From positions 1 through 59,715 of the forward strand of contig CAKZVF010000195.1 in NCBI GenBank assembly GCA_937921995.1: 59,715 nt of DNA. Direction: 5' to 3'. Source of the stretch: an uncultured Pirellulaceae bacterium. Lineage in GTDB: Bacteria; Planctomycetota; Planctomycetia; Pirellulales; Pirellulaceae. The notes under the pieces are model-generated. The model saw only the letters and a program-made list of their open reading frames with translations. It was not told where the DNA came from and ran no database searches. The position numbers were made by a program, and so were the translations under genes. Below are positions 31,546-52,853 of this stretch, piece after piece (position 1 is the stretch's first letter; each line of letters starts with the position of its first letter).

Positions 31546-32931
31546 CTATTGCACTTCGAACTCAGCAAAAATCTCATCCAAGTTGATGACGTCGACCGGT
31601 TGCGAAACGGTCGAGAGGTATTCGGTCAAATATTCTCCGCCGCCCCCATCGGTAGGATAGATCGCAAACGACTCAAAACCGTCTTGCGTGCCCAAAACAT
31701 CGGTCGTGCGGCGTCCGCGACTGGCTTGATGTTCCCACGTCCAGAATGTCACCGATTCGAAAACGTCGCCGCGTCCTTCTAACGCCGTGATGACACTTTC
31801 GAAAATTGCTCTTTGTTCCAGAGGGTCAAAGGCGTAACGATCCTCAGCGCCCGCGTCGACCCAGTCACCAGGGGCAACCGACCACGGAGCACGCGAGGCA
31901 TAGTTCTGCTGAACAGCGCCGACCTCTTGCAGAACGACAGGCAGATCGAACTCAGCCGCCGCATGTTCGACTTCATCGAGGAAGTCAGTCCAGTTGCGGA
32001 CGAAACTGTTGAAAACTTCTTCAGACACTTCGCCAACACCGGCAACCGATTGAACGTCGTCCGCAGCAGTCAACCAGCGGTAAGCACTAATTCCAATGAA
32101 GTCGATTTCGTCTTGAGCGAACAGAGTTCGATGCCCGCTGTTGGTGAACGCATCGTGGTTGGCGGCGTAACCGATGCGAGTTTCGGTGTTGCCTTGGGCG
32201 ATGAATGTTTGCTCAACCGATTGCAGCAGGCCTTGAAAAAATCCGGCGTTATTCGGGTTGGCCACCATCGCGTTAAGCTCAGAACCGATGTTGAACCGAT
32301 CAACGCCGTCGATGGCCGCCAGTTCTGTGATCCACCGCGCGTATTGTGTTTGGAAGACGTATTGCTCTTGGCCAACAGGATCGTAATTGCCGCGCCAGCC
32401 TTGGTCGGTTTCGAACAGAGGCAGAATCGTGACCGAGAGATCTTTTTCGACGGCGTACTCAACGGCTTGCGAGACCGTCCATACCGATGGCCCGCCGCTG
32501 ACAACACCTTGGTTCACTTGTCGGAAGACGGCAAAGGAAACTTCGGTGGCATTAATCGAGTGCAGTTCATCGACGGCGTTTCGCCATCCGGTTAAAACGT
32601 CGTAACTGTCGTATGCGTTCTCTGGATCCTGAGCGACAAAAGCGGTGACGATGGCTCCTACGACGGGGTCTTCAACGGTTTGAGAATCGCCGGCAGTCTG
32701 CATCATGTGTTGACAGGCATCGGCAGGAGCGTCCGGTGGATACGCACACGCGAACGAGGCCAGCATCGCGCGGGGTTCCAGCGGTTGAAAAGATAGCCGA
32801 TCCTGTATGGATCGTTTGGACGTCCTTTGTTTGGCGGCCGTTGTAGAAATAGAAGCAATCAGCGAAGCGGCTTTGGAAATTGCGTTTGCAGGAAACGCGT
32901 TTGGAAAACGTGCGCAAATTGAATCAGGCAA
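31546..32931 (-). CDS. GH113-like TIM-barrel glycoside hydrolase with LEPR N-terminal motif
   Basis: A 461-residue protein starting from TTG. The first 60 residues are basic and Ser/Ala-rich and contain LEPRAMLAS at 51-59, the LEPR-xLL motif that marks many exported planctomycete proteins. The rest resembles GH113 beta-mannanase-like barrels: LSVTILPLFETDQGWRGNY (strand with substrate loop), FNIGSELNAM (probable acid/base Glu) and DLPVVLQEVGAVQQN (probable nucleophile Glu), then VFESVTFWTWEHQ. Substrate is not certain; a beta-mannan or related hemicellulose is the family precedent. The end is not a dockerin. Confidence 0.78.
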   Translation of the reverse strand: MPDSICARFPNAFPANAISKAASLIASISTTAAKQRTSKRSIQDRLSFQPLEPRAMLASFACAYPPDAPADACQHMMQTAGDSQTVEDPVVGAIVTAFVAQDPENAYDSYDVLTGWRNAVDELHSINATEVSFAVFRQVNQGVVSGGPSVWTVSQAVEYAVEKDLSVTILPLFETDQGWRGNYDPVGQEQYVFQTQYARWITELAAIDGVDRFNIGSELNAMVANPNNAGFFQGLLQSVEQTFIAQGNTETRIGYAANHDAFTNSGHRTLFAQDEIDFIGISAYRWLTAADDVQSVAGVGEVSEEVFNSFVRNWTDFLDEVEHAAAEFDLPVVLQEVGAVQQNYASRAPWSVAPGDWVDAGAEDRYAFDPLEQRAIFESVITALEGRGDVFESVTFWTWEHQASRGRRTTDVLGTQDGFESFAIYPTDGGGGEYLTEYLSTVSQPVDVINLDEIFAEFEVQ

Positions 32932-34618: not shown

Positions 34619-35368
34619 ATGATATTTGGAAAGTTTTGGCGAGCAATTTCGGCACAGATTAATAAGTTGGCCAACTATTTCTGGACGGCGGATCCAATTG
34701 CTCAGATGCAATACGAATACGACAAAGCCGTCGAAGAAATGAAGGGCGGCCGTCAGGGACTGGAGCAGTACCGAGGCCTCGTCGAACGCGTGACCCGTCA
34801 AGTCACCGGCGAAAAACGCCACGTGAAGGAACTGGAATCGAAGATCAAGGCTTATCTGGCCGCCGGTGATCGTGAAACCGCAGGTAAGTTCGCCGTTGAG
34901 CTCAATAGGGCCAAGGCCGACCTTGCCGAAAACCAAGAACAACTGGACATGCACGAGAAGGCGTACGACAACAACGTCCGCAAGGTGAAAAGCGCGATGG
35001 GCAAGCTGTCGAAGATTCGCGAAAAGATTCAGTCTTATGACGCCGAACTGAAGATGAGCCGCGCCGAAGCGGAGATGGCCGAACTGGCAAAGGATTTTAA
35101 CTTTGACGTAACAACCGACTTCGGGCAAATCGAAACCGTGATCCAAGATAAGATCGCGCTCAACCGAGGCAAGGCGCGCGTGGCGGCGGATCTCAGTGAA
35201 GAAGGCATGGTCGACATCGAACGCGAAGAAGCGATGGAAAATGCTCAAGCCGAAGATGCGCTGCGTGGCTTCGAGGTTGAAATGGGTTTGGTCACGCCTT
35301 CGACGGCTGGGCTTGAGGACGATGTTAAAGAGATGGGGCCTGCGGATAAAGAGACTGAATTGAATTAA
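34619..35368 (+). CDS. pspA: PspA/IM30 family membrane-remodelling protein
   Basis: A 249-residue, almost wholly alpha-helical protein. FWRAISAQINKLANYFWTADP is the amphipathic N-terminal helix of the PspA/Vipp1 (ESCRT-III superfamily) fold, followed by a long coiled coil (about 28-150) rich in Glu, Lys and Arg. The C-terminal third is acidic. Family members polymerise on inner membranes and protect them from stress. It leads a same-strand set with an AAA+ ATPase and ABC transporter genes. An AAAGG site precedes the ATG; the start is unambiguous. Confidence 0.9.
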   Translation: MIFGKFWRAISAQINKLANYFWTADPIAQMQYEYDKAVEEMKGGRQGLEQYRGLVERVTRQVTGEKRHVKELESKIKAYLAAGDRETAGKFAVELNRAKADLAENQEQLDMHEKAYDNNVRKVKSAMGKLSKIREKIQSYDAELKMSRAEAEMAELAKDFNFDVTTDFGQIETVIQDKIALNRGKARVAADLSEEGMVDIEREEAMENAQAEDALRGFEVEMGLVTPSTAGLEDDVKEMGPADKETELN

Positions 35369-35374
35369 GTAAGA

Positions 35375-35480
35375 GTAGTTTGGGCACTCCTGCCCGAGCT
35401 TTGGCAGTAAGTGGGGTCGGGCAAGAGTGCCCAACCTACGCTTGGTGTGAATTGTGGTCGGGCAGAAGTGCCCAACTTTC
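35375..35480. repeat. REP-like cluster, TTGGGCAC/GTGCCC family (three copies)
   Basis: Three copies with a GTAG-type head: 35375-35398 (GTAGTTTGGGCACTCC..), 35416-35439 inverted and 35457-35480 inverted. Each can form a GGGCA/TGCCC hairpin around a 4-base loop. The first two form a facing pair. The third lies just before the AAA+ gene, so an ATG or GTG upstream of 35502 inside this repeat is not a real start. Confidence 0.75.
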
Positions 35481-35501
35481 GGACTAGGGGCGAATCACCG
35501 C

Positions 35502-37418
35502 ATGGCTTCAGCAACGACAACATCTGCTACCAGTGTCTCGGTGCCTGATTGGTATCCCGGATGGGCGCGTGAAATGGCGAATTTGTATTTCGCCGCCAAT
35601 ACGTGCCTGTTTGTGATTCACGGCAACGTCAATGACTTGATCCATTGCCAAGAACAAGACGGCGGTAAAACGGTCGATAAATTTTGCGGGCTGACGGAGT
35701 TTTTGTCCAAGCAGATTTTCGGATCGTGGGATTTGGTGACTTCCTACGACATGGGACGCGGTATTCAGGCTCAGGCCGGCGCAGATCCCAAACGCCATCG
35801 CAGCATGATGGAAACGTTGGGCAAGAACATGGGCAGTCCGGCCTCATGGACTCGCAATCCCGATGATGTGTTGACCAATTACCAACGCATGATTCAGCGG
35901 AACTTGCTCGAGGAAGACCCCAAGGAGCGACAACGCATGGCGTTTCTGTTTCCTTACGCTCAGTTCTTGATCCCATCGGGCGACCAATCATCGGTCTCGC
36001 GGACGCAGGCTTCGCATTTGGTCCGTTTTTTATCATGGGCTCAAAACCCCTATATCAAACGAGTGAATATGTCGTTCTGTTTGATCGCCGAGACGCTGAC
36101 CGAGGTAAACAAACGGCTTGTTCAGGATCCGCATGTCGCGACGATCGAAGTCCCGCTGCCCGATGAAGCGACTCGCCGGGTTTTCATCGAAACGAATTTC
36201 GATCTGGACAGTGAACCCGAAGAAGAACCCGCCGCCGAACCGGTGGGCTTTGATCTTACACGCGCCCCTGAGGAGGTTGAACCGGAACCCGAACCGGTTG
36301 CGGCTGAAGCGAAAACGGATTCGAAGGCATCTGAGGCTTCCAAGGATGAAAATGGCGGAGGCATGTCCGTCGAAGCGATCACGCAGATCTCCAACGGATT
36401 GAACTTGATCAACCTCAACGTCGCGATGTCGCGCAGCAAGCTCTCGGGCAAAGCGGTCGACATCAACCAATTTCGGAATTTGAAAAAAGGACTGATCGAA
36501 CGTCAGTGTCAGGACTTGGTCACCTTCCTTGAACCCGAACACACGTTGGACATGGTGGTCGGGCACACGGCCGCTAAGGAGCGATTGAAATTGGACGCTC
36601 GCTGGATCGTCGAAGGCCGGTTGGATGCTTCGCCGATGGGGTATTTGATCTGCGGTCCGGTGGGGACGGGGAAGACGTTCATCTCCGAATGCTACGCCGG
36701 TTCGATCGGTATTCCCTGTTTGGTACTGAAGAATTTCCGCTCCAAGTACGTTGGTGAAACCGAAGGCAACCTTGAAAAGGTGCTGAACGTGTTGCGTTCG
36801 CTGGGACCGGTGATGGTCATCATCGACGAAGCCGACGCGGCGCTTGGCAATCGTGAAGGCGGCGGCGATTCGGGGACCAGCAGCCGAGTGTTCTCCATGA
36901 TCGCCAGCCAAATGGGCAACACGAAATACCGAGGCAAAATCATTTGGATGTTGCTGACCAGTCGACCGGAACTGTTGCCGATCGACTTGAAGCGGCAGGG
37001 CAGGGCGGAGGTGCACATTCCGCTGTTTTATCCCAAGAAAGAGTCAGAAATTCAAAAGATGTTCGTCATCATGGCGAAGAAGAACAAAGTGAAACTGGAA
37101 GACGACGCCGTTCCCGATGTTTCGGTCGAACGCGAACTCAGCGGTGCCGACATCGAAAGCGTCGTGCTCAACGCAAAACGGCGAATGATGGCCGATGGGC
37201 GTGACGTGCTCAATCGCAAAGACATGGAAGAGTCATTAGAGAGCTTCATTCCTTCGGCCCAGGGGATCGAGAAAGAGCTTCAGGAAATGAACGCGGTGCT
37301 GGAGTGTACCGATCGAAGATTCCTGACCGACCATTGGCGCAAGGTGCTTGAGGAACCCAACGGCCGCGCCGAAATCCAACGCAAGGTCGCGCTGAACGAA
37401 CAGTTGCTTGGAAAGTAA
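35502..37418 (+). CDS. Two-domain AAA+ ATPase linked to PspA
   Basis: 638 residues, cytoplasmic. Residues 15-235 look like a degenerate AAA domain (TCLFVIHGNVNDLI) without a Walker A. Residues 236-288 are an acidic Glu/Pro-rich linker. The active AAA domain has Walker A GPVGTGKT at 385-392, pore-loop SKYVGETE at about 414-421, Walker B VMVIIDEADAA at 437-447, sensor-1 region MLLTSRPELLPIDLK and Arg finger near RQGRAEVHI. The pore loop resembles the Vps4/p97 type and the layout Ycf46. Start at 35502 because the region above is repeat sequence. It may disassemble PspA polymers as Vps4 does ESCRT-III (inference). Confidence 0.85.
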   Translation: MASATTTSATSVSVPDWYPGWAREMANLYFAANTCLFVIHGNVNDLIHCQEQDGGKTVDKFCGLTEFLSKQIFGSWDLVTSYDMGRGIQAQAGADPKRHRSMMETLGKNMGSPASWTRNPDDVLTNYQRMIQRNLLEEDPKERQRMAFLFPYAQFLIPSGDQSSVSRTQASHLVRFLSWAQNPYIKRVNMSFCLIAETLTEVNKRLVQDPHVATIEVPLPDEATRRVFIETNFDLDSEPEEEPAAEPVGFDLTRAPEEVEPEPEPVAAEAKTDSKASEASKDENGGGMSVEAITQISNGLNLINLNVAMSRSKLSGKAVDINQFRNLKKGLIERQCQDLVTFLEPEHTLDMVVGHTAAKERLKLDARWIVEGRLDASPMGYLICGPVGTGKTFISECYAGSIGIPCLVLKNFRSKYVGETEGNLEKVLNVLRSLGPVMVIIDEADAALGNREGGGDSGTSSRVFSMIASQMGNTKYRGKIIWMLLTSRPELLPIDLKRQGRAEVHIPLFYPKKESEIQKMFVIMAKKNKVKLEDDAVPDVSVERELSGADIESVVLNAKRRMMADGRDVLNRKDMEESLESFIPSAQGIEKELQEMNAVLECTDRRFLTDHWRKVLEEPNGRAEIQRKVALNEQLLGK

Positions 37419-37429
37419 CAATCATTGAC

Positions 37430-37483
37430 GTAGTGGATCTTGTGAAAGATCCTCGTGGCGGGATCTTTAACAAGATCCACTAC
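37430..37483. repeat. REPIN-like inverted pair, GTAGTGGA family (fully paired type)
   Basis: Arms at 37430-37452 and inverted 37461-37483. The hairpins are GGATCTT/GTGA/AAGATCC and GGATCTT/GTTA/AAGATCC after GTAGT. The arms are only eight bases apart, the shortest spacer in the window. It lies between the AAA+ gene and the small-protein gene. Confidence 0.85.
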
Positions 37484-37516
37484 CCATTCACCCATACTAA
37501 ACTTCAGGAGAAAACG

Positions 37517-37813
37517 ATGGCGCGTAAAAGCTGGTTAGATGATAAAGGCGAATCAACCTTAATTGATGGTTACGCTCAGCAAAGTTCCGATTTCATTCAA
37601 GCGATGGCCGACGGTACGATTGACGACAGTGAAGTCGAACAGCAGGAGGCTAAATTGGTGGCCTTGATGAAGAAAATCGAGCCCAACCTCAGCGATGAGC
37701 AGCACGCGGAGATCACCGAATTGTTGTGCGAGATGTCCGCGTTCAACGTGATGCAAATGCTGAACGTGATTCACAAGTCGCGTCCGGCCGCGACGTCGAC
37801 TTGGGTGCCTTAA
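37517..37813 (+). CDS. Small helical protein of the pspA cluster
   Basis: 98 residues, acidic and helical: STLIDGYAQQSSDFIQAMAD and DSEVEQQEAKLVALMKKIEP, with SDEQHAEITELLCEMSAFNV. AGGAG at 37506-37510 fixes the ATG at 37517; a longer frame above is repeat sequence. No known family was recognised. Its position between the AAA+ ATPase and the solute-binding protein suggests an adaptor or regulator of the PspA/AAA pair (inference). Confidence 0.75.
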   Translation: MARKSWLDDKGESTLIDGYAQQSSDFIQAMADGTIDDSEVEQQEAKLVALMKKIEPNLSDEQHAEITELLCEMSAFNVMQMLNVIHKSRPAATSTWVP

Positions 37814-37835
37814 CTTAAACAATTGTTCGTCGGAA

Positions 37836-37942
37836 GTAGTGGGCGAGGCCACGAGTCCTGGGGCTGCGTTAAACGATGCATGAAAGTTCAATGATGAATG
37901 ATAGTTCAATACAGCTGCTGGATTCGTTGCCTCATCCACTAC
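37836..37942. repeat. REPIN-like inverted pair, GTAGTGGA family (G·A stem type)
   Basis: Arms at 37836-37858 and inverted 37920-37942. Stems GGGCGAG/GCCA/CGAGTCC and GGATGAG/GCAA/CGAATCC after GTAGT. Both keep the tandem G·A mismatch. It lies between the small-protein gene and the solute-binding/OmpA gene. Confidence 0.85.
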
Positions 37943-38030
37943 CCTGAAATTGAGGCGTCGCGCTTCACGATGGAGATCCATCGTTTTTCGATTTAGATTC
38001 AAAGACCATTCTTGATTTGGAGATCACCCT

Positions 38031-39824
38031 ATGGCGGGCAAACCAACACCTATTTTTTATCTGGCTGTACTTGCGGTTGTTTTTGGATTGATCGGATTCG
38101 CCGCCTATCAAGCATTCGCGCCCGGAGGCGATGGTCCCGCTGCGCCGACGAAAGAGGCGGCAAGTAATAACGGTGGCTCCAGCGGTAGCAGCGGAGAGAG
38201 TTCGGGCTCGGACACGGATATCGACCTCAGCGAAATTAGCGGCGCAGAATCCGCTGACACCCAAGGGATCACGACGGTCAGCGAATACACCTTCACACCT
38301 TCGGAGCGTTTGCCCAAAGTGAAGGGCACCGCGGCGTATAAAAAGATGGAAGATAACACCGTCAAGTTTGCGCTGAACGTGTGGGCGGGTTGGGCTCCGA
38401 TCATACAAGCCAACAATGGTTTTAAAGCCGACAAAACCTGGAAGACGCCCGACGGCAAAGAATTCAAACTTGAACTAGTACTGATCGACGATCCGGTCGC
38501 GATGCGCGAAGCCTACGTCAATGGCGACGTTCACATCGGGTGGGCGACGCTTGATATGATGCCGCTGCTGATGGAAGGCTTTGTAAAGCGCAACGGCGAT
38601 CCGATCGACAGCCGCGTGATGCCAAGGATTTTTCAACAGGTTGATTGGTCCAACGGTGGTGACGGTATCGTCGCGCGAAATGGCGTGAAAACGATCACGG
38701 ACCTGCGTGGCAAGAAAATCGTATTGGCCCAGAATTCGCCTTCAGAATATTTTGTTACGAACATGCTGGTCTACGGGGGCATCCAGCCGGCAGAGGTTGA
38801 GTTTGTGTACACCGGCGATGCGTTTCAAGCCGCCGCGGCGTTTAACGCGGACAAATCCATCGACGCCGTTGTGACTTGGGCTCCGGATATTTACAACCTG
38901 TCGGACGTGAAAGGGAACAAGATGATTGTTTCCACACTCACCGCAAACAAACTGATCGCCGATGTGTGGTTCGCTCGCGCTGATTTTGCGAATGATCATA
39001 AAGATATTTGCGAAGGCTTGGTGCGAGGCATTTTTGACGCGATGACGGAGCTGAACACTGAAGCCGGAAAGAAATCTGTCTCTGAACTGATGGCCGATGG
39101 TTTTGGATTGCCCGCCAGCGAAGCGTACGACATGCTGGCGGACGCTCACAGTACCAATTGGGCGGAGAATTTTCAGTTCTTCATGAACAAGAACAATCCC
39201 GCCAACTTCGAACGGGTTTGGAATCAGGCTTACTACATTTACCGCCGGTTGGGAAAGATCTCGCATTCGACGGTCAAGTTCGACAAGGTCATGGATTTTT
39301 CGATTATCGAGAAACTGAAGTCCGATGATAAGTATTCCTCGCAAGTCGACGAGTACACGACTCAATTTATGCCGACGACGACCAAAGAGGTGCGGGGCGC
39401 CGAGGAAATCCTGACCAATACGGTTGTGATTCACTTCTTCCCTAACAGCGCGGATCTGAACAAGAAGGTCGTGAAAAGAGAAAACGGAAAGGATGTCGAG
39501 GTTCCCTATGATCCTAAGGTTGATTTCGTTTTGGAAGAGATTGGAAAATTGGCGGGCCAGTTCGGCACCGCGCGGATCATTATCGAAGGTCACACCGATA
39601 GTTCGATGAAGGGCAAGGCTCCGGTCGATTTGGTGAAGGGGTTGGCGAACAATCGCGCCCAAGCGGTGAAGCAGGCGCTGACCAAGAAATTCGAACTCTC
39701 GCCCAACCAATTCAATACCGATGGCTTGGGCTGGGACCGTCCGGCAGATCCCGATGATCCGCTGAACCAAGCCAAAAATCGACGCGTCGAGGTGAAGATT
39801 TATCCGGCTGAGTCGTTGAATTAG
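38031..39824 (+). CDS. Membrane-anchored solute-binding protein fused to OmpA peptidoglycan-binding domain
   Basis: 597 residues. One N-terminal membrane anchor (IFYLAVLAVVFGLIGFAAY, about 8-26), a Gly/Ser linker, then an NMT1/SsuA-like ABC solute-binding domain (about 100-400) with VWAGWAPIIQANNGF, GDVHIGWATLDMM and VTWAPDIYNLSDVKG. Residues 463-595 form an OmpA/MotB domain: VVIHFFPNSADL, IIIEGHTDSS and NNRAQAV with NRRVEV, including the Asp and Arg that bind diaminopimelate. The protein would span from inner membrane to peptidoglycan and hold the substrate site of the following ABC permease. Its ligand is unknown. Confidence 0.85.
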   Translation: MAGKPTPIFYLAVLAVVFGLIGFAAYQAFAPGGDGPAAPTKEAASNNGGSSGSSGESSGSDTDIDLSEISGAESADTQGITTVSEYTFTPSERLPKVKGTAAYKKMEDNTVKFALNVWAGWAPIIQANNGFKADKTWKTPDGKEFKLELVLIDDPVAMREAYVNGDVHIGWATLDMMPLLMEGFVKRNGDPIDSRVMPRIFQQVDWSNGGDGIVARNGVKTITDLRGKKIVLAQNSPSEYFVTNMLVYGGIQPAEVEFVYTGDAFQAAAAFNADKSIDAVVTWAPDIYNLSDVKGNKMIVSTLTANKLIADVWFARADFANDHKDICEGLVRGIFDAMTELNTEAGKKSVSELMADGFGLPASEAYDMLADAHSTNWAENFQFFMNKNNPANFERVWNQAYYIYRRLGKISHSTVKFDKVMDFSIIEKLKSDDKYSSQVDEYTTQFMPTTTKEVRGAEEILTNTVVIHFFPNSADLNKKVVKRENGKDVEVPYDPKVDFVLEEIGKLAGQFGTARIIIEGHTDSSMKGKAPVDLVKGLANNRAQAVKQALTKKFELSPNQFNTDGLGWDRPADPDDPLNQAKNRRVEVKIYPAESLN

Positions 39825-39846
39825 TGGGGGGAGCGACGCATCGGCG

Positions 39847-39974
39847 GTAGTGGACGAGGCCACGAGTCCGGCATCTCCATTGAACGTCGCATTAAATAGA
39901 CGTCGCATAAAATGAACGCCGCATAAATTTGGGCAGATCAAATTCCCCGCAGGATTCGTGGCCTCATCCACTAC
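39847..39974. repeat. REPIN-like inverted pair, GTAGTGGA family (G·A stem type)
   Basis: Arms at 39847-39869 (stem GGACGAG/GCCA/CGAGTCC) and inverted 39952-39974 (GGATGAG/GCCA/CGAATCC) after GTAGT. The interior has AATTCCCCGCAGG, as in the copy at 82-166, so the inner sequence is also partly conserved. It lies before the permease gene. Confidence 0.85.
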
Positions 39975-40040
39975 GATTGGGCTTTGATGTAACGTTGCGG
40001 TCGTAAACACGTTGATGTTTCGAAAGTATTTCGAGGGAAA

Positions 40041-41084
40041 ATGGCAACTGAAGACACTACTGTCGCCAGCGCGAAAAAATTGCCTTGGTTTCCGATCCGA
40101 GGCGAAATAGGGATCGTTACCTCGGTGCTGCTAGGCCTATCCTGCATCGCGTTGGTGTTTGGGCTGTGGTGGTTTGTGACGCTGGGCGAAAGTTCAGAGG
40201 ACCGCATTGTTAGCGCACTTGCCCTGCCGAGCCCTTCGGAAACCTTTTCGACGTTCGAGCAATTGTGGAACGACCGAGAGTTGGTGAGCAACACGTTGAC
40301 GACGCTCTACCGAGTCGCTGCCGGATTTTCTTTGGCGACCGTGATCGGTGTACCGCTGGGAGTTTTGGCCGGTTGTTTCCCGCCGGCGAAAGCGTTCCTA
40401 ATGCCGCTGATCTTGTTTGGGCGTAACATCCCCATCGCTGCCTTGGTTCCGTTGTCCTTCTTTTTCTTTGGCATCGGTGATTCGCAGAAGATCGTGTTTA
40501 TCTTTATGGCGACCGTGGCGTTTGTGATCGCCGACACCGCAACGTCAATCATCAACGTCGGACAGCAGTATTTGGACACCGCCTACACCGTCGGAGCCAA
40601 TCGCTGGCAAACGATTATCAAAGTCATGGTTCCGCTGGCGATGCCGTCAGTGCTTGACTCCTTACGACTGTTGTTTGGATTGGCGTTTGGCTACATCATG
40701 CTGGCCGAAACGATTAAACTGGGCACCGAATCCGGCGGGCTTGGCCATTTGATCAGCATGTCGCAGCGGCGAGGCCCACGAGCTCATATCTACCTGATCA
40801 TTTTGATCATTCCCGTTGTGGCGTTTTTGATTGACCGCGTTCTATTCGCGATTCAAAAAGGGCTGTTTCCGCACAAGTACGGCGGCAACGGATGGCTGTT
40901 GGGGATTTTTAGAACTGTGGCCGGAGCGTGGGGAGACGTGAAGTCGAAAATGTTTCAACCGGTACCTCCATTTGATCAGCTGACTCTGGCGACAACTTCG
41001 GACTACGAAGCGAAACCAGTTCCTGAAAAAACACCTACCTTTCGCAAACGACGTGGTGATGACAATGCGGAGTGGCGACCATGA
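40041..41084 (+). CDS. ABC transporter permease (SsuC/TauC-like)
   Basis: A 347-residue inner-membrane protein with about six segments, starting with VTSVLLGLSCIALVFGLWWFV and ending in a long cytoplasmic tail. The EAA-type coupling loop is GANRWQTIIKVMVPLAMPSV. It is of the BPD_transp_1 type used for sulfonate, nitrate or thiamine-precursor uptake. A 4-base ATGA overlap couples it to the ATPase gene; the solute-binding protein lies just upstream. The transported molecule cannot be named. Confidence 0.9.
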   Translation: MATEDTTVASAKKLPWFPIRGEIGIVTSVLLGLSCIALVFGLWWFVTLGESSEDRIVSALALPSPSETFSTFEQLWNDRELVSNTLTTLYRVAAGFSLATVIGVPLGVLAGCFPPAKAFLMPLILFGRNIPIAALVPLSFFFFGIGDSQKIVFIFMATVAFVIADTATSIINVGQQYLDTAYTVGANRWQTIIKVMVPLAMPSVLDSLRLLFGLAFGYIMLAETIKLGTESGGLGHLISMSQRRGPRAHIYLIILIIPVVAFLIDRVLFAIQKGLFPHKYGGNGWLLGIFRTVAGAWGDVKSKMFQPVPPFDQLTLATTSDYEAKPVPEKTPTFRKRRGDDNAEWRP

Positions 41085-42019
41085 ACGAATCAGCACAACC
41101 GCAACCGTCAAAACAAATTGGCTCAGCCACCGACAACGAAGACATTGGTAAAGATGTTGGTGTGGCGACGGTGGTTGCTTCAGATTGCGTAGACGCCGAA
41201 GATGATCGAGTCCCGGTGGTCGAATTTAGTAACGTCACCAAAACTTACAACGCCGGCGGTGCGAATGCTTTCACGGCGATTAAAGACGTATCCTTTGTCG
41301 TCCAAGATAAACCGGACGAGGGCGAATTTATCGGCGTGCTTGGCCCGAGCGGCTGTGGTAAGAGTACGATCTTGAAGTTGATCGCCGGACTGTCGCCGCA
41401 GCATCCTCCGACGACCGGTTCGGTGAAAGTTTTGGGCAAAGAGGTCGTCGGTCCCGGAGCCGATCGCGGGATGGTGTTTCAGGATTACACCAGTTTCGAT
41501 CACCGCACGGTTTTGGAGAACGTGACCTTTGGATTGGAATGCCACGGCGTTTCACGAGCCATCCGCGAGGAACTGGGCCGGCACTGGATCGAACAGGTCG
41601 GGTTGGATGTTGCCAACGATGCGTCGAAGTACCCGCATGAGCTTTCGGGCGGAATGCGTCAGCGCGTGGCGATCGCGCGGAGTCTGATCTTAAAGCCGCG
41701 CGTGATTTTGATGGACGAACCGTTTGGGGCTCTGGACCCGCAAACGCGATTAAACATGCAAGATCTTTTGGTGGAACTATGGCGCAAGGTGGAAGCGACG
41801 GTGTTCTTTGTGACGCATTCGATCGAGGAGGCCGTGTACCTTGGGGATCGAGTCTATGTGTTGAGTAGTTCGCCCGGGACGCTTGCCCGTGAATTGGAAG
41901 TAGAACCGCCCAATCGTCCTGCGGCAGAGATGCAGCGGGAACAGGAGTTTCAGGAGACGATCTTTTATCTGCGCGATTTAATCGCAGCAGAAGAAGCACT
42001 GAAACAGGCGGGGTTGTAG
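41081..42019 (+). CDS. ABC transporter ATP-binding protein
   Basis: 312 residues. Walker A GPSGCGKST (88-96), the Q-loop region VFQDYTSFDHRTVLENV, signature LSGGMRQRVAIARSL, Walker B VILMDEPFGALD and H-loop VTHSIEEAV are complete. About 45 acidic residues precede the fold. The start ATG at 41081 overlaps the permease stop as ATGA, so it is translationally coupled; an upstream GTG at 41072 is less likely. It energises the SsuC-like permease. Confidence 0.95.
   Translation: MNESAQPQPSKQIGSATDNEDIGKDVGVATVVASDCVDAEDDRVPVVEFSNVTKTYNAGGANAFTAIKDVSFVVQDKPDEGEFIGVLGPSGCGKSTILKLIAGLSPQHPPTTGSVKVLGKEVVGPGADRGMVFQDYTSFDHRTVLENVTFGLECHGVSRAIREELGRHWIEQVGLDVANDASKYPHELSGGMRQRVAIARSLILKPRVILMDEPFGALDPQTRLNMQDLLVELWRKVEATVFFVTHSIEEAVYLGDRVYVLSSSPGTLARELEVEPPNRPAAEMQREQEFQETIFYLRDLIAAEEALKQAGL

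Positions 42020-42125: not shown

Positions 42126-42133
<8 letters not shown>
42071..42133. repeat. 21-bp tandem repeat, three copies
   Basis: Three units of CGCTGATCGGCGATTATGAAA type (42071-42091, 42092-42112, 42113-42133) between the ABC ATPase and the hybrid kinase, which converge here. The last unit covers the stop codon of the kinase. It could serve as a weak bidirectional spacer. No hairpin is evident. Confidence 0.8.
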
Positions 42134-45593
<3,460 letters not shown>

Positions 45594-45656: not shown

Positions 45657-48600
45657 TTATTCGTCTACGATCTGATGGATTGTCTCTGCTTCTTCTTCGT
45701 CAAACTCTCTAATCAAAGGGCTAACGTCCAGCGTTTTCCAAGCCGGCAATTGCGTCACAACGGTCGTCGCCATCGCTGCGAATCGCAGATAGGAAACAAG
45801 TCCTAAGGAAAGTCCGGCCGAGGCCGCGACGATCGTCGTATTGTCCACTTGTAGATTCCTTCGAATAAATTCATCTTCTGAATCTTCGAAGCCCCGCCAG
45901 AAGTACTTTGCCAACATGCATTCTTCAAGTTTCATGTCCTCAAATGTTGAGCGGGATTCGGTAAGGTCCCCAATTTCTTGGGTAATTAATTGTGGTCCCT
46001 GCGCAGTGGACTGATAAGCGTAGGACACCGAATCCGACGTGAGTTCAAAAAACACGTCATCATCACCAATTTTCGAATCGGAACTTGCGGTAATACCGTT
46101 AGTGTCGTTTCTACGTTGCGAAATCGGTTGCGCTATCGTGTCTGGGTTGGTTTCTGGCTTCGCTGTCGAAATCACGTCGGGCTTGTCCGTTGTCTGAGGA
46201 GCGTTCATCTCGGGATTCATGATTGATGTTTCTACGTCATCATCAACAACTTGAATTTGAGGATCGTCATTGGTGGTTGAATTGGTTGCGTTATCAACCA
46301 CATTCACACCGCTAGTGTCCTTGAGAGAAACCCGGATTGTTTCGGGAGCCGAAGTCAACTGGCCATCCGAAGCGACGACGCTGACTTCAAAGTCTCTTTG
46401 GTCGACTCCCGTTAATAGAGGAGTGGTCGCAAATCGAAGCCTATTATTTCCATCGATGAAGAATATGCCGTTGTCTGCGCCGGTTCCGTGAAGCAAGAAA
46501 TTTACAGGGTCGCCATCCTTATCAAAGGTAACGGCTTGATTGAGGTCTGCGACAATGATGCCAGGCCGGACTTGAGATAATTCGAAATCTTCAATCGAGT
46601 TTATCACGGGGGCGAAATCAGTGATCTCGGGTCGGTCGTTGATATTTTCAACCGTGATCTCAAATGTGATTATCTCAGAGTTCACAGTCCCATCGTTGAG
46701 CGCGGTCGTGACGACATAGGTGTTTTTTCCGCCATTTTCCCAAGTCGGAGGGTCAATAAACTGGATCCTGTCATTGACGATTTCGAAGAGACTGTTGTCT
46801 GGCCCATCTCCGGCAATGACAAGGCTGGTGGCATCACCATCGGCATCACTTCGGTACTGGGCGTCGAGCCCGAATGATGCATCGGACAGTTCGACCTGTG
46901 AAACGGAGATCGCGTTGATGCTCGATTCAGGGGCGTCGTTGATGTTGTTGATGATCAGGTTGACCGTTTTTGCCTCGGAATCGTTGCTGCCGTCATTGGC
47001 AACGATTTGAACTTCATAGGTTGGCGACTGTGGCCCGATTAGCTCGGGAACATCGATCAGAGTCAATTGATTGTCGACGATATGGAACAATCCCGCGTCG
47101 GCACCTCCGGCTATCTCCAGCGTCATGCTCTGATTTTCCGGATCCTCAAATAGCTCTAACAAGTCGAATGATGCCGTGCTACTTTCGTCCTGGTCAAGTG
47201 AAAGCTGTTGATCGTCGCCGACGAAAACCGGTGCTTCGTTGACATCTCTCAGTGTGACTCGAATCGTCTGAGTCGCGGTGCCTCCGCGGCTATCGTTGGC
47301 CACAACGGTCACCTCGTCGATGTTGTTCCCTCCGGCATCAAACGGCATTTCATAATCGGGTGTGTTGATAAACGTAATTCTTCCCAATTGATCGATCGTA
47401 AATACTGGAGGTTCTCCATCATCGAAGATTGAAAATATCACCGAATCACCATCCGGATCAGTCGCGCTGATCGTTTGGACGAAATCGTTACCTTCGTCGA
47501 TGAATGATTCATCATCGGCAATGATGACGGGGGACTCGTTGGCGTCCAGCACTTCGACATTGACTATGCGCGAAACAGATCCGCCCTTTGGGTCTTCAGC
47601 CATTACGGTAAGCGTATAGATGGTTCCATTGTTGGAGCTCATTGGGTTTTCGAAATCAGGCGGCGAATCGAAAGACAGGGTGCCATCAGAAGCAATATGG
47701 AACAGATCTCCATCGCCAACAGCAGGCACAATACTCAAGGTTACGGTGTCGCCATCTGCGTCGGACGTCGAGATAACATCTACCTCTGTTTCGCCTTCGA
47801 CGACCGTGAATCCGGTTGTTGGGCCGATGACGGGTAAGTGATTTTCCTCGGTAACATCAACGAAGACCAATTGCTCAGTGGTTTCTCCGTTTTGATCATC
47901 GGCAACCACCGTTAGCGTGTAGCTGTTGTCGTTATTGGTAGAATTTGGAGCGTCGTAGTCTGGTGCAGAGATGAACTCGATATTTCCATTGGCATCTACT
48001 TTAAATAGTCCGCCATCGCCAGTGTTAGGCTTGATTGAGTAAAACAGGGGGTCGCCATCTTGATCTGTCGCATCTATCGTCGCGACAAACGTTTCGCCTT
48101 CCAAAATACTTTGGTCAGAGATTGGAGTGATTTTAGGCGCGTCATTTAGGTCGACGATGTGGATTTCGATTGCTTCGGTGGTTATCCCGCCGTTCCCATC
48201 ATCGGCGACAATGGTTAGCTTGTGCTCGTTGTCCTGCAAGTCGCCAGGGGGAACCTCAAAATCAGGTATCTCGCTTAGGAAAATGTTTCCCAACGCATCG
48301 ATCGTGGCTCGCGGGGGATCCAGGGCAGTGTCGATGATACTTAAGGTGACTTCATCTCCGTCGGGATCGGTGACGGTAACTGTTTCAACGAAAAGCTCGC
48401 CTTCATTTACCGTGTAAATGGGGCTGAAATTGATGATTGGACTTTCGTTGACATTAGTCACTTCGACCGTAACGTTTTCTGTCCTGCTCAGTAGAGCGCT
48501 GCTGGCGGTGACGGAGAAGTTGTAGAAGTTGTTTCCGTCGGAATCTTGTGGGGTTTCAAAATCTGGTTGCGACCGAAAGCTAATGTTTCCGTCGGCATCA

Positions 48601-51600
48601 ATTTGAAAGAGATCACCATCGCCACTTCCTGTAGGAATCGAGTAGTCGATCGAACCCATGTCCGTAGTGCCTGATACTTGGCCTACCGAGAGTTCGCCCT
48701 CTTTAACTTTAAAGGGATCCGAAACGGTGAAGGTCAGCTCATCATTCACATTCTGAACGAAAACTGCGATGGGCAGGTGAGTGATGTGGTTCCGGGAAGT
48801 CGCGGTGAGGCGCACTGCATACCGATTGTCTCCTGCCTCGTTTTGTGGGTTTTCGAAATCGGGAGGCGCGAGGAAAGTCAGCTCGCCTGTCTGCGCATCA
48901 ATTTGAAAGAATTGATTGTCTTGAACGGTCGGGTTAAGACTGATCGTGACATTGTCCCCGTCGGGATCAACTGCAGAGACCGTGGTGACTTCAGTTTCTC
49001 CCTCAGTCAAAAATATCGGGGTGTCCACAGTGATGACGGGCGCTTCGTTTCGGTCGGTGACATTGACGGTGACCGTTTCTTCTACGCTTCCACCGTTGCT
49101 ATCATTGACGACGACAGTAACTTCGTAAGTTTTGTCTAAGTCGGCATCGAGCGGGTTTTCGAAGTTCGGTGCGCTGTTAAAGGTGAGGGCACCCGTTGAT
49201 GAGATGGTGAACAGGCTAGTGTCGCCAACGGAAGAGTTGAGTGTGAATGTGAGCGGGTCGCCGTTTGGATCGGTGGCTGTAACATTGCCTGCGGCTGTTG
49301 ATCCTTCGACAACGTCGAACGTTTGGTCAGGCGGTATCACAGGCGCGCTGTTACCGTCAACGATATTGATGGTGAGATCATGGTTGGTTACCTCACCATT
49401 GTTCGCGTCCACCACAACGATATTGAGAACAAGGTTGGGCTGAGCTAACAGTTGAGACGGAACAAGTTCAATCTGAAATCCGCTTCCGTTGCTAATTATC
49501 CTTGCGCCATTGACCGCCGGGGCTACATAGATGTTTGCTGGGGGATTCGCTGAACTGCCCATGAAGTTGTCAGGATCAATCACAAACGAATTCAAGTCGA
49601 CAATTTGCGTACCACCATTTTGATCGATGGTGATTTCGTTATATTGCTGGACGGGTAGGTCGTTGACTCCCACCACGTTCAGTTCGGTGACCGTGTCAAA
49701 GATCTCTGCGCCACGCTGAATGACGACGTCCGTCGTCGCCGTTTCAGTCTCCAAATGAGTCAACTGATTGAAGTCGGATTGTGGATCAAACTGAAGATCG
49801 CCGTTGGCTAGAACGCTGAACGTTGAGGCGATGTTGTTTTGGTTAGATGTGAAATTGATCGTGCTTGCAGATTCTAAAATTTGTCCGTTAATACCGATGA
49901 TTCGTGGTGCATTCCTGATGGCGTTGTATCGCTCTTGTACTGCGTCCGCGTCGAGCATGCTATTCTCAAAGCGCAACAGTCCTAGTTCGCCACCGAAATT
50001 ATCTGCCGTTGACGCTCCGACGCCAACGCTGCCACCTGCTGATCCAAGGTTAATAGTGTTTGAGACTTGCACGACATCAGCGAAGTGCGCTCCCAATACA
50101 TCGTTAATTGATTCGGATAATTCTCCATTAAGGTAGATCGCGGCATCGAGCTTGTTGGGATCGCCAGCAGCACTCCCGAAGGAAACGACGATCTGATCGT
50201 AACTGCCAGATCCCTCAATTCCCCCCAATCCTGCGGCGGAAAGCTCGGTAATGTCTGAACTGTCGGACTTGAACTGCAAGACAACTTCGTCTTGCCGCTG
50301 AATAATAGAAAACCCTTGGTTTTCATCGCCAAGTTGGGCGATGATGCGGTCGTTGCCTGTGAAGTCTTCCCAACGCATCCACAGTTCGAGCGACGCGGCT
50401 TGGCCAATCGCAGGTAAATCGGCCGTCAGCGGTGTCGTACCATCGAAGACATACGATGACGAAATCCCGCTGGTCGGGGAGGGGGAACTGCTGATTCGAT
50501 CTTCAAAGTCTGTTTCAACAAAGTCGACGTTGCTGATGGAATTCAACAGGTCAGCTGGCAACTCTCCTTCGGTGTCGATGAAATTACCAATGAATTCCGC
50601 TTGAGTCATTGTTAAGGAGGTGTCTTCATCGGTGGTAAATACGGTGCTAGAGAAGGTTGGGGCGTCATCAACAGGATTGACGACTACTTGGAATTCCGTG
50701 ACGAACGCGTCGTCCATGCCGTCATTCGTCGTCAGCGTCGCAGTGGCTTCGATCGTCCCCGATACGTTAGCAGGAGCCATGAATTGCAGCGGACCGATGT
50801 CGGTTGGATTGTAAAGCAGATTTTGATTAGTTGGGGATACTACGGTGTAAATCAATTTGCCTTCAGTATCAGTTTGGCCTGTGGAGATCTTAGATCCGAT
50901 CGGCAGACCAGTGATCTCAAGAGTTTCAAAGACCTCGGTGGTTGAACTTGGATCAATCCCCACCACGGAATTTAATGAAATCCAAGAATCTTCATCGCCA
51001 GTGGTGGACATTCGAAGACGCTGATGGAAATGCTTCGCTGGAGTCGCTTGGTCATCGGACTTAAAGGTGGCCACAAGTTTGCCGTCGTTAAGTACCGCTA
51101 GTTCTGAGTCCGTTTGGTCGCCCACGCTGAACGAGTTTATTTTGAAGGCATCGCCCAATGGGGTGAGGTCAGCATTAAGACGCAGCCCCACAATGTCCTG
51201 TATTCCTGCTGAATCCACTGAGGTAATTGAAACAACAAAAGAGCCGTCGTCGAGCGTGACGATGTCTGGTGAACTGTTGTTGGGGTTATTTGCGACAAGT
51301 TCGCTGGTTATGATATTGCCTGAGTTGTCGAGCTTCGCCACGAAAACGTCGTTGACAAAGTTCGAAGTGTTTTCAAAGACGACTGCAAAACCATTGTCTG
51401 TTGTGCTAACGACAGACACATCGCTTCCGGTGATGCCAGACGCAACTGCGACATCTACTTCAAAGAAGCCTCCGGGGTCAAAGATAGATGAAAAAATTGA
51501 GTATGTGCCACCATCGTCGACGACGCGCGTGCGTACAAATCTCCCATCTGAGAGAAGCTCCGTGCCAACAGAAAGGGTGTCGCTGTTTTGGATCAGAGAA

Positions 51601-52853
51601 TCACTGAGCACCTTGACGAAGCTTCCACCAAAGTCGAATATCTCAGATTTAACCTCTCTTGTGTCGGACTGAATGAAGGAAATAACGAATTTATCTTCGC
51701 CGAGGAATTCGATGTCGATGTCGTCGAAACTCGTGAACTCTGTGGGCTTAAGTTCGATGAATGAATCGAGAAAGTTCAGTTCTTGGCCTGTCTCGGTGAA
51801 TCGGTGAATGTTGAGCAGTTCATTGCCGGTTTGTGAACTTGCGTAGCCGACCAAGAAACCTCCATCATCAACCGTGGTGACCGTAAGGTTATCGACAGCA
51901 AGTTTATTGGCGACTTGGACAGGGCTTCCAATTGGGACGCCATCGTTGTCAAAAATTTGAAACATCACGTCCCCATCGCTTGCACCCACAGTGGATACGA
52001 CGACATAACCACCGTTAGAAAGGGACTCAACGTGAGTTTCTGAATCAGGGGAGGTGGTTTCAAAAACGGGTGCTGACCCGTCTATCAGAGCGAAGGTATC
52101 CCCGAATACGGCGACGCCGTCATCGGCGACGCCCTCGTAAAGGGTTGCGAAAGAATCGCCGAAACTAAATGCATCGCCCTGTAAAGTAAAATCGACATTT
52201 CCCACAAAACTGGGATCAGGCACAAATACAACCAGATTGTCGTTTATTTCCTGTGAAGTGACGGTCTGAGTGCCTACCTCAAGTGGCTCACCATTGACTA
52301 AAATCTCGCCTGATGAAGGCGGGACAAGCAAGGTAAATCCTTGGCCAAAGGTAAAAAGTGAATTTTCAGTCGGGTCTCTGAGAAAATCATAGTCGATCGT
52401 GAATGATTGACCTTCGTCAAATGTATAGAATCCTGCTGCATCAGGCGTCGCTTCGGCGAGCCCCATCGCGGTTCGGGGGCCTTCGTCTTCGGTGGAAGCC
52501 GTATCGTTTTGCTCGAACGAGTTCACCAGTTGATCGAGATCTTCAAGCGTTGCTTCGGCTGATGTTGCCGCGTCTGGTGCGGTGTAGGTGTCTTGGGCAA
52601 GGAACTTAGATGAGGTCTCTTCAGCAATGGCTTCGCCGATAGGCAGGGTCGTGTTTGAATCAATTTCGATGAATTGAACATCATCCAAGTCTGTGTTCTC
52701 AACAGGCGCATCAACGTTGTCCACCGGTAGAGGAACAGCGCTATAAAGCACGCGTTCCTCAAGCGTCTGCAGCAGTAGCGGAGATTCGGACTCGCCCGTC
52801 TCCTTCAAAAACCACTTACTCAGGTTCTTCGTTAATTTGCTGATTTTATTCAT
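45657..52853 (-). CDS. Giant surface protein with cadherin repeats, LamG-like domain and LEER motif
   Basis: 2398 residues. LEERVLYSA at about 32-40 is the LEPR-type planctomycete N-terminal motif. Residues about 150-640 carry bacterial-Ig- and propeller-like repeats, then a concanavalin/LamG-like domain around 800-980. About ten cadherin-like repeats of 95-100 residues follow (pattern NEAPVI, DPDGDxVxxSI, FxIDxxGxI, YxxTVVAxDxxGGS). The end has a hydrophobic segment IVAASAGLSLGLVSYLRFAA and PAWKTLDVSPLI, as in other giant planctomycete/gammaproteobacterial adhesins that lie beside hybrid kinases. The role is probably cell-cell or surface adhesion in the outer envelope. Confidence 0.87.
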   Translation of the reverse strand: MNKISKLTKNLSKWFLKETGESESPLLLQTLEERVLYSAVPLPVDNVDAPVENTDLDDVQFIEIDSNTTLPIGEAIAEETSSKFLAQDTYTAPDAATSAEATLEDLDQLVNSFEQNDTASTEDEGPRTAMGLAEATPDAAGFYTFDEGQSFTIDYDFLRDPTENSLFTFGQGFTLLVPPSSGEILVNGEPLEVGTQTVTSQEINDNLVVFVPDPSFVGNVDFTLQGDAFSFGDSFATLYEGVADDGVAVFGDTFALIDGSAPVFETTSPDSETHVESLSNGGYVVVSTVGASDGDVMFQIFDNDGVPIGSPVQVANKLAVDNLTVTTVDDGGFLVGYASSQTGNELLNIHRFTETGQELNFLDSFIELKPTEFTSFDDIDIEFLGEDKFVISFIQSDTREVKSEIFDFGGSFVKVLSDSLIQNSDTLSVGTELLSDGRFVRTRVVDDGGTYSIFSSIFDPGGFFEVDVAVASGITGSDVSVVSTTDNGFAVVFENTSNFVNDVFVAKLDNSGNIITSELVANNPNNSSPDIVTLDDGSFVVSITSVDSAGIQDIVGLRLNADLTPLGDAFKINSFSVGDQTDSELAVLNDGKLVATFKSDDQATPAKHFHQRLRMSTTGDEDSWISLNSVVGIDPSSTTEVFETLEITGLPIGSKISTGQTDTEGKLIYTVVSPTNQNLLYNPTDIGPLQFMAPANVSGTIEATATLTTNDGMDDAFVTEFQVVVNPVDDAPTFSSTVFTTDEDTSLTMTQAEFIGNFIDTEGELPADLLNSISNVDFVETDFEDRISSSPSPTSGISSSYVFDGTTPLTADLPAIGQAASLELWMRWEDFTGNDRIIAQLGDENQGFSIIQRQDEVVLQFKSDSSDITELSAAGLGGIEGSGSYDQIVVSFGSAAGDPNKLDAAIYLNGELSESINDVLGAHFADVVQVSNTINLGSAGGSVGVGASTADNFGGELGLLRFENSMLDADAVQERYNAIRNAPRIIGINGQILESASTINFTSNQNNIASTFSVLANGDLQFDPQSDFNQLTHLETETATTDVVIQRGAEIFDTVTELNVVGVNDLPVQQYNEITIDQNGGTQIVDLNSFVIDPDNFMGSSANPPANIYVAPAVNGARIISNGSGFQIELVPSQLLAQPNLVLNIVVVDANNGEVTNHDLTINIVDGNSAPVIPPDQTFDVVEGSTAAGNVTATDPNGDPLTFTLNSSVGDTSLFTISSTGALTFNSAPNFENPLDADLDKTYEVTVVVNDSNGGSVEETVTVNVTDRNEAPVITVDTPIFLTEGETEVTTVSAVDPDGDNVTISLNPTVQDNQFFQIDAQTGELTFLAPPDFENPQNEAGDNRYAVRLTATSRNHITHLPIAVFVQNVNDELTFTVSDPFKVKEGELSVGQVSGTTDMGSIDYSIPTGSGDGDLFQIDADGNISFRSQPDFETPQDSDGNNFYNFSVTASSALLSRTENVTVEVTNVNESPIINFSPIYTVNEGELFVETVTVTDPDGDEVTLSIIDTALDPPRATIDALGNIFLSEIPDFEVPPGDLQDNEHKLTIVADDGNGGITTEAIEIHIVDLNDAPKITPISDQSILEGETFVATIDATDQDGDPLFYSIKPNTGDGGLFKVDANGNIEFISAPDYDAPNSTNNDNSYTLTVVADDQNGETTEQLVFVDVTEENHLPVIGPTTGFTVVEGETEVDVISTSDADGDTVTLSIVPAVGDGDLFHIASDGTLSFDSPPDFENPMSSNNGTIYTLTVMAEDPKGGSVSRIVNVEVLDANESPVIIADDESFIDEGNDFVQTISATDPDGDSVIFSIFDDGEPPVFTIDQLGRITFINTPDYEMPFDAGGNNIDEVTVVANDSRGGTATQTIRVTLRDVNEAPVFVGDDQQLSLDQDESSTASFDLLELFEDPENQSMTLEIAGGADAGLFHIVDNQLTLIDVPELIGPQSPTYEVQIVANDGSNDSEAKTVNLIINNINDAPESSINAISVSQVELSDASFGLDAQYRSDADGDATSLVIAGDGPDNSLFEIVNDRIQFIDPPTWENGGKNTYVVTTALNDGTVNSEIITFEITVENINDRPEITDFAPVINSIEDFELSQVRPGIIVADLNQAVTFDKDGDPVNFLLHGTGADNGIFFIDGNNRLRFATTPLLTGVDQRDFEVSVVASDGQLTSAPETIRVSLKDTSGVNVVDNATNSTTNDDPQIQVVDDDVETSIMNPEMNAPQTTDKPDVISTAKPETNPDTIAQPISQRRNDTNGITASSDSKIGDDDVFFELTSDSVSYAYQSTAQGPQLITQEIGDLTESRSTFEDMKLEECMLAKYFWRGFEDSEDEFIRRNLQVDNTTIVAASAGLSLGLVSYLRFAAMATTVVTQLPAWKTLDVSPLIREFDEEEAETIHQIVDE

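Follow-up and report, generated by a model that had tools for sequence, protein, structure and literature searches.

A conserved gene set joining PspA, an AAA+ ATPase and an ABC importer with an OmpA-fused binding protein in a Pirellulaceae genome

The gene set and its conservation

The window analysed here is the whole of contig CAKZVF010000195.1 (C195; 59,715 nucleotides), which belongs to the 4.8-Mb, 77% complete genome of an uncultured Pirellulaceae bacterium (GCA_937921995.1). Positions 34619-42019 carry six genes on the + strand, coding in order for a PspA-family protein, an AAA+ ATPase, a small protein, a solute-binding protein fused to an OmpA domain (SBP-OmpA), an ABC permease and an ABC ATPase (Table 1). 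The gaps between them, up to the permease, are 133, 98, 217 and 216 bp, and the stop of the permease gene overlaps the start of the ATPase gene in an ATGA at 41081-41084. A first-pass annotation, made by a model from the letters alone, had listed these six same-strand genes in this order, with their domains and the ATGA coupling of the ABC pair. All of the open reading frames and the coupling are present, and Pfam agrees on the domains of PspA, AAA+, SBP-OmpA, permease and ATPase. The list was nevertheless one partner short, as a seventh, here named c4, is encoded on another contig of the same genome (C50, 23218-24078 (-)). The gene set is real and conserved, its genes are very probably functionally linked, and it belongs to a set for which a published prediction exists (Ravi et al., 2024, PMC11237479).

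Scanning a single genome for each species gave 411 relatives of the fusion protein, of which the best 80 were fetched; 41 of these have at least 4.5 kb on both sides of the fusion gene. In 34 of the 41 well-flanked loci, the fusion gene is surrounded by the genes for PspA, AAA+, the small protein, permease, ATPase and c4, a figure that describes the nearest relatives and leaves L162, L165 and some other loci with short flanks outside the count. This bears out the earlier proposal that these genes form one set, with partners found near pspA and near each other. Six of the 34 also encode a VWA-like protein, recognised by eye. The content is the same in two gene orders, these being PspA-AAA-small-SBP-permease-ATPase-c4 and PspA-SBP-permease-ATPase-c4-AAA-small, the latter seen in L179, L198, L221 and L224.

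By the depositors' labels, the best 80 relatives are mostly from Planctomycetota, the closest to that of the window being in bins labelled Pirellulaceae (75, 72 and 76% identical). Larger sets are also present in L179, L196, L198 (Paraliomyxa miuraensis strain SMH-27-4) and L221, labelled as Myxococcota or groups within it, and in L224, labelled Acidobacteria. The short locus L174, labelled Deltaproteobacteria, has PspA, AAA+, the small protein and the fusion. L210 and L211 (labelled Gammaproteobacteria, Lysobacterales) have fusion and permease with no PspA or AAA+ in the available flanks. A further group of eight Fuerstiella/Planctomycetaceae loci (L181, L184, L190, L192, L195, L199, L217 and L220) has a fusion gene about 60% identical; the available flanks, several of which are short, contain none of the partners PspA, AAA+, small protein, permease and c4.

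Distribution was also surveyed in 246 Planctomycetota genomes, with thresholds of E 1e-5 for the N-terminal half of the AAA+ protein, 1e-20 for the fusion and 1e-5 for PspA. The AAA+ N-terminal half was found in 34 genomes, PspA of the operon type in 33 and the fusion in 26, of which 20 have strong matches (the first 22 places). AAA+ and PspA occur together in 29 genomes (Fisher 2e-28, uncorrected for relatedness), and each of the two is present in 18 of the 20 strong fusion genomes. Neighbourhood counts were taken over 31 of the 32 fusion places, the second piece of the G131 gene being dropped, and over one row for each of 35 AAA+ genes. A same-strand PspA gene lies within 10 kb of 21 of the 35 AAA+ genes; within the same distance of the 22 strong fusion genes, PspA is present at 17 and AAA+ at 11, several contigs being short. 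The spread is patchy: of the 149 genomes in the window's family, 10 have a strong fusion match, as do two of the six listed genomes of the same genus.

Proteins of the set

The PspA of the operon is the sole PF04012 match found in the window's 77% complete genome and passes the Pfam cut-off (46.6 bits against 33.9, E 4e-12), which places it in the ESCRT-III superfamily (PspA/IM30). The operon PspAs possess a variable C-terminal stretch holding a short motif, KEMGP in the window. Scored in the last 40 residues, its strict form (K-x-[ILMV]-G-[PE]) is present in 59 of 85 distinct operon PspAs and its relaxed form ([KR]-x-[ILMV]-G) in 84 of 85. The strict form is seen in 37/55 close and 17/26 further (divergent) operon PspAs and the relaxed form in 55/55 and 25/26 respectively, two of the 26 being duplicates of members of the 55. 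Shuffled tails have the strict motif at a rate of 0.75% and the relaxed one at 6%, for which reason the relaxed form is weak evidence. The ten PspAs from genomes of the window's family all have the strict motif; four were already in the close set, leaving six true hold-out sequences from outside the motif definition (6/6).

For comparison, 87 PspA-family places (PF04012) were listed, 26 of them beside AAA+ or fusion genes and 61 not. The comparison set comprises 45 of the 61 (40 and a further five), the other 16 being left out, and one of the 40 is truncated by a contig end. The strict motif is present in just five of the 45, namely G164 (the only one of the 40, among which six have the relaxed form) and G009, G076, G187 and G191 among the further five; G102 lacks it. 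The AAA+ protein is encoded, whole or in part, in all five genomes with an unlinked strict-motif PspA. In G164, G076 and G191 its gene lies on another contig. G009 has a full-length match (profile search, E 9e-191) and G187 an N-domain piece near a contig end (E 7e-30); no AAA+ had been found in either by the first genome scan (N-terminal half, E 1e-5), and both came to light only after the motif prompted a search. With G102, the profile search matched just the shared ATPase part, and that partially. In genomes with both kinds of PspA (e.g., G130, G134, G149 and G178), the second PspA is without the strict motif. From this distribution among operon and unlinked PspAs, the tail motif is judged to be the mark of an AAA+-associated PspA subfamily, and it is a candidate docking or pulling site for the AAA+ protein.

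It should be mentioned that the AAA+ gene of G009 (C15, 48804-50537 (-)) has one in-frame TGA according to the search tool, with decay or assembly error being possible. In L136, L137 and L139, PspA is replaced upstream of the fusion gene by a coiled-coil protein (c31) whose N-terminal part bears a hydrophobic segment and which in some cases is present as a tandem pair. Its profile aligns weakly with that of PspA (E 8e-4, probability 25%), and c31 may correspond to the Snf7 homologs with a transmembrane (TM) segment of Ravi et al.

The AAA+ protein matches PF00004 (E 1e-20) and is of the classic Cdc48/Afg2/FtsH type, its best solved-structure matches being Afg2 and Cdc48/p97. A complete classic AAA domain makes up the C-terminal half. 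In the alignment of 35 sequences, its Walker A lysine, Walker B DE, D-x-K-R-x-G-R arginines and pore-loop glycine are identical in all but one, which has a gap there, and the second position of the pore loop is aromatic in each of the 34 sequences covering it (W 26, Y 7, F 1). The N-terminal half has no P-loop or Walker A but possesses an H-G-N-[VI]-x-D stretch, with the G and D found in 35/35 and the N in 31/35. Compared with each other, the N- and C-terminal halves align with E 6e-4, against 0.41 for a reversed control (hhalign probability 28%). By its sequence, the N-terminal half fits a degenerate AAA domain, in agreement with what Ravi et al. (PMC11237479) state for the family.

The protein had earlier been described as Vps4/p97-like on account of its pore loop SKYVGETE. 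The loop is present, but the protein is not a Vps4. Since the N-terminal half fits a degenerate AAA domain, the layout is not Vps4-like; Pfam detects neither an MIT domain nor a Vps4 C-terminal oligomerisation domain, and the CdvC model scores 38.2 bits against a cut-off of 650, so that identity as Vps4 (ESCRT-IV) was rejected. The anti-phage ATPase IetA/IteA was likewise rejected (NCBIfam, 42.5 of 510 bits), the best PADLOC model, which comes with no curated cut-off, giving 52.7 bits over residues 382-608 only.

The small protein (98 aa) has invariant W6, D32, E39, Q43, H63, T67, L69 and L70 in 43 aligned sequences and is modelled as helical (mean pLDDT 89). No Pfam family was found for it and no solved relative by PDB sequence or fold search. 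It is present in 60 of the 80 loci, and its usual position after the AAA+ gene in both gene orders suggests that it serves as a cofactor of the AAA+ protein. When it was considered as TerB or MIT-like, one of the 43 members matched TerB (E 0.009) and there was no PDB sequence or fold match. In divergent groups (L038, L043, L054, L041 and L042), the AAA+ gene is followed by a different protein of about 200-280 aa (c6), between which and the small protein no profile similarity was found.

The seventh partner, c4, is a coiled-coil protein of about 285 residues, of which the N-terminal 50 are hydrophobic and long helices follow; the model of the L150 protein (mean pLDDT 79) has helices at 14-28 and 31-51. 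No consistent Pfam match and no convincing PDB sequence relative (best E 0.009) were found for c4. It was also considered as a second ESCRT-III protein and rejected, as the profile comparison with PspA was empty and Foldseek gave nothing under E 0.001; entries of BAR-domain proteins are frequent in its fold list, with a TM-score of about 0.2, and were not used.

Within the window's family, c4 is found in 10/10 strong-fusion genomes, that of the window included, versus 4/139 others (Fisher 9e-13, uncorrected for relatedness). Two of these four have operon fragments near contig ends, namely G305 (ATPase-c4) and G342 (permease-ATPase-c4). The 20 kb examined in G253 and in G276 contain a PspA-AAA+-small-c4 core but no gene of the transporter, and neither genome has a fusion at E 1e-40. 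In three of the ten strong-fusion relatives, as in the genome of the window, c4 lies away from the fusion gene and is still retained: it is about 0.88 Mb away on the same contig in G263 and on another contig in G279 and G310. Across the 246 genomes, c4 is present in 26, of which 23 have AAA+. From this co-occurrence and the unlinked cases, it is therefore concluded that c4 is retained with the PspA-AAA+ core even when unlinked. On the c4 contig of the window's genome (L226 for this locus, with c4 at 9218-10078 (-)), genes for NfeD-like and flotillin/band-7-like proteins were identified by eye on the opposite strand at 13048-15737, about 3 kb from c4. PspA operons with band-7/flotillin proteins are described by Ravi et al. 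(PMC11237479).

The fusion protein possesses an NMT1-type binding domain (PF09084) and an OmpA domain (PF00691), both above cut-off, and a single hydrophobic segment near its N-terminus. The top model for the binding domain is the urea-type TIGR03427, at 73.8 bits against a cut-off of 333.9, followed by sulfonate and taurine models, and its solved matches are taurine, sulfonate and nitrate-binding proteins. The matches of the OmpA domain are various proteins that bind peptidoglycan. Two conserved residues of OmpA domains, an Asp and an Arg, hold diaminopimelate, and the corresponding D523 and R542 are invariant in 20/20 sequences, placing the domain by sequence among OmpA-like peptidoglycan binders. 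Identity as a SaoP/SaoA, TauABC or urea (TIGR03427) transporter was rejected, with scores below the curated equivalog cut-offs (SaoP 138.2 of 295; taurine ATPase 206.2 of 357). The lipid- or wall-linked ligand proposed in the first-pass annotation is unsupported, the binding domain being nearest to models of urea, sulfonate and taurine-type small-solute proteins and far below their cut-offs. Through the fusion of a binding domain to a wall domain, transport would be made to depend on the spacing of membrane and wall. Among the matches listed in a literature search, none was a relevant work on fused binding proteins.

Table 1. Coordinates of the genes and features of the set in the window
Feature	Position	Strand	Basis
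PspA-family (ESCRT-III superfamily) protein, 249 aa	34619..35368	+	PF04012
PspA C-terminal motif KEMGP, residues 237-241, candidate docking tag	35327..35341	+	putative function
AAA+ ATPase, degenerate N-terminal and complete C-terminal AAA domain	about 35502..37418	+	start codon deduced from homologs
Walker A GPVGTGKT, C-terminal AAA domain	36654..36677	+	sequence
Pore loop SKYVGETE of AAA+	36741..36764	+	sequence
Small helical protein, 98 aa	37517..37813	+	no Pfam family, no PDB relative found
Solute-binding/OmpA fusion, hydrophobic anchor at residues 8-26	38031..39824	+	PF09084 and PF00691
Solute-binding domain, residues 112-360	38364..39110	+	stretch matched by TIGR03427
OmpA-like peptidoglycan-binding domain, about residues 487-590, invariant D523 and R542	39489..39800	+	PF00691
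ABC permease, related to TauC, NrtB and SsuC	40041..41084	+	PF00528
ABC ATPase, related to TauB and NrtD; ATGA overlap with permease	41081..42019	+	PF00005

Promoter and terminator scans of the window gave site numbers about equal to those of shuffled sequences, with 12 terminator-like hairpins against a mean of 10.8. One of these, a 7-bp hairpin followed by a T run at 37967-37984, lies between the genes for the small protein and the fusion, at the border of two modules. The end of the operon is faced by a convergent hybrid kinase gene (PAS/HisKA/receiver/Hpt, 42126-45593 (-)), 106 bp from the stop of the ABC ATPase. Further upstream of the gene set lies a GH113-like protein (31546-32931 (-)), and 45657-52853 (-) codes for a repeat protein of 2398 aa. 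Both of these large proteins begin with LEPR-x-LL-like stretches (FQPLEPRAML and LQTLEERVLY).

A putative PspA-unfoldase pair and alternative readings

The best reading of the set, held with moderate confidence, is that of an envelope-maintenance machine of two modules, in which an ESCRT-III/unfoldase pair of bacterial type, docked by way of the PspA tail, would work next to an importer anchored to the wall. In the first module, PspA would form a polymer on the inner face of the cytoplasmic membrane. A hexamer of the AAA+ protein, with its small helical partner, would grip the free C-terminal tail of PspA at the K-x-[ILM]-G-[PE] motif and thread subunits through its aromatic pore, extracting them from the polymer and so giving polymer turnover. 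The complex may be anchored or nucleated by c4, which probably forms a hairpin in the membrane and has its coiled coil in the cytoplasm. The second module would be the ABC importer, whose binding protein would be held in the membrane by its anchor, with the OmpA domain clamping it to peptidoglycan. Such an importer might work only at the right distance between membrane and wall, and could thereby report osmotic or envelope stress to the first module, or relieve it. That the AAA+ protein acts on PspA had already been put forward in the first-pass annotation; it is made more likely by the PspA-AAA-small-c4 core found without a transporter in two genomes, and by the C-terminal motif of PspA, which tracks the AAA+ protein.

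A number of observations weigh against this reading. Seven of the 41 well-flanked loci are short of the full set, three of them having no partner at all; one of the seven, L147, is the locus of G310, in which the fusion lies with PspA-AAA-small on one contig and permease-ATPase-c4 on another. PspA-AAA pairs occur with no transporter nearby in several Planctomycetota loci. The strict motif is absent from 26 of the 85 distinct operon PspAs, and the relaxed form lacks specificity, occurring as it does in 6/40 non-operon PspAs and 6% of shuffled tails. In G131 (82% complete), the PspA next to the fusion gene has the strict motif, but the search of that genome yielded no AAA+ of this type. As the motif is a subfamily trait, its occurrences cannot be counted as independent, and common descent may be all that links motif and AAA+. 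With c4, there is no significant fold match (Foldseek, best E 0.22) and no profile similarity to PspA, and hydropathy gives it one to three segments, varying by sequence.

The conservation of fusion, permease and ATPase beside the AAA+ gene in the nearest relatives could also be accounted for if the AAA+ protein acted as a chaperone in the loading or assembly of the ABC transporter or of its wall anchor, with PspA just stabilising the surrounding membrane. AAA+ distances correlate with those of the fusion (0.90) as well as with those of PspA (0.85); mirror-tree correlations range from 0.65 to 0.94 over 46 loci, are uncorrected for shared ancestry and carry little weight. This explanation is considered improbable. 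The transporter-free cores of G253 and G276 speak against it, as do the PspA-AAA pairs without transporter genes already cited, and the tail motif sits on PspA and tracks the AAA+ protein.

Somewhat unlikely too is an ordinary nutrient importer, in which OmpA merely fixes the binding protein in the periplasm and co-location with PspA-AAA reflects co-induction, under starvation or osmotic stress, with no physical coupling. Its permease, ATPase and binding domain are indeed nearest to models of nitrate, taurine and sulfonate importers, the modules are separate in some genomes, such as on the two contigs of G310, and a terminator-like hairpin lies at the module border, although hairpins of this kind are no more frequent than in shuffled sequence. 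Against this reading stands the fact that the genes are retained together, in two different orders, across Planctomycetota, Myxococcota and the Acidobacteria-labelled bin of L224. For the proposed ESCRT-III/unfoldase pair, the conserved PspA-AAA+ core with its candidate docking tag and two uncharacterised partners is open to bench tests with a few purified proteins.

Comparison with known systems

Operons of PspA, or Snf7-TM, with a two-domain AAA+ protein, an ABC ATPase, a permease and a PBPB-OmpA protein have been described by Ravi et al. (2024; PMC11237479, section 18), who propose ATP-dependent membrane remodelling linked to solute transport and give OGG56892.1 as an example. The window agrees in the five named components: PspA stands with the AAA+ gene, this encodes two domains with an inactive N-terminal copy, and ABC ATPase, permease and OmpA-fused binding protein are present by order and domains. 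The ESCRT-like and peptidoglycan roles proposed there are also the same. The first-pass annotation had known of no characterised system of this composition; the same composition is predicted in that paper, though not characterised. c4, the small protein, the PspA tail motif and the split into core and transporter are not named in its accessible text, and the term VWA is absent from the accessible main text, whereas a VWA-like partner is seen here in 6/41 loci. Added here to what that text describes are c4 and the small protein as frequent partners, the transporter-free PspA-AAA-small-c4 core and the PspA tail motif. No experimental study of such operons was found in open-access titles or the beginnings of abstracts, and the accessible part of PMC9239133 does not mention operons of this composition.

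The importers NrtABC, TauABC and SsuABC and the TIGR03427 binding proteins share the permease, ATPase and binding-domain families of the second module. They differ in that the binding protein here is OmpA-fused and membrane-anchored, with scores well below the curated cut-offs. The phage shock system of Proteobacteria also has PspA together with an AAA+ protein, PspF, but this is an NtrC-type transcription activator (PMC11237479) and the AAA+ protein here is of the classic Cdc48/Afg2/FtsH type. Chaperones or PspF have been suggested as possible recyclers of PspA (PMC11746142). Closer in arrangement is an archaeal VAT-like ATPase, a Cdc48-type enzyme whose gene has a PspA-like gene upstream (Makarova et al., 2024, PMC10936438); it differs in being archaeal and in having a VAT-type N-terminal domain, and the accessible text of that work mentions no transporter or OmpA fusion.

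Archaeal and eukaryotic ESCRT-III with Vps4 likewise combine an ESCRT-III superfamily protein with a classic AAA ATPase that has an aromatic pore loop. The set described here differs in that no MIT or Vps4 C-terminal domain was found in its ATPase by Pfam, the N-terminal half is degenerate and the polymer-forming protein would be PspA rather than Snf7. ESCRT-III subunits carry C-terminal MIM motifs, and the tail motif of PspA is likewise C-terminal but unlike MIM1 or MIM2. It is tentatively proposed, as a possibility that falls short of being likely, that the set is a bacterial functional counterpart of the full ESCRT-III/Vps4 cycle which arose apart from archaeal Vps4, comprising a tagged PspA subfamily, a two-domain AAA+ unfoldase, a small adaptor and c4 as a membrane-anchored coiled-coil organiser, and that in many lineages an importer clamped to peptidoglycan is coupled to it, by which the remodelling of the membrane would follow the state of the wall.

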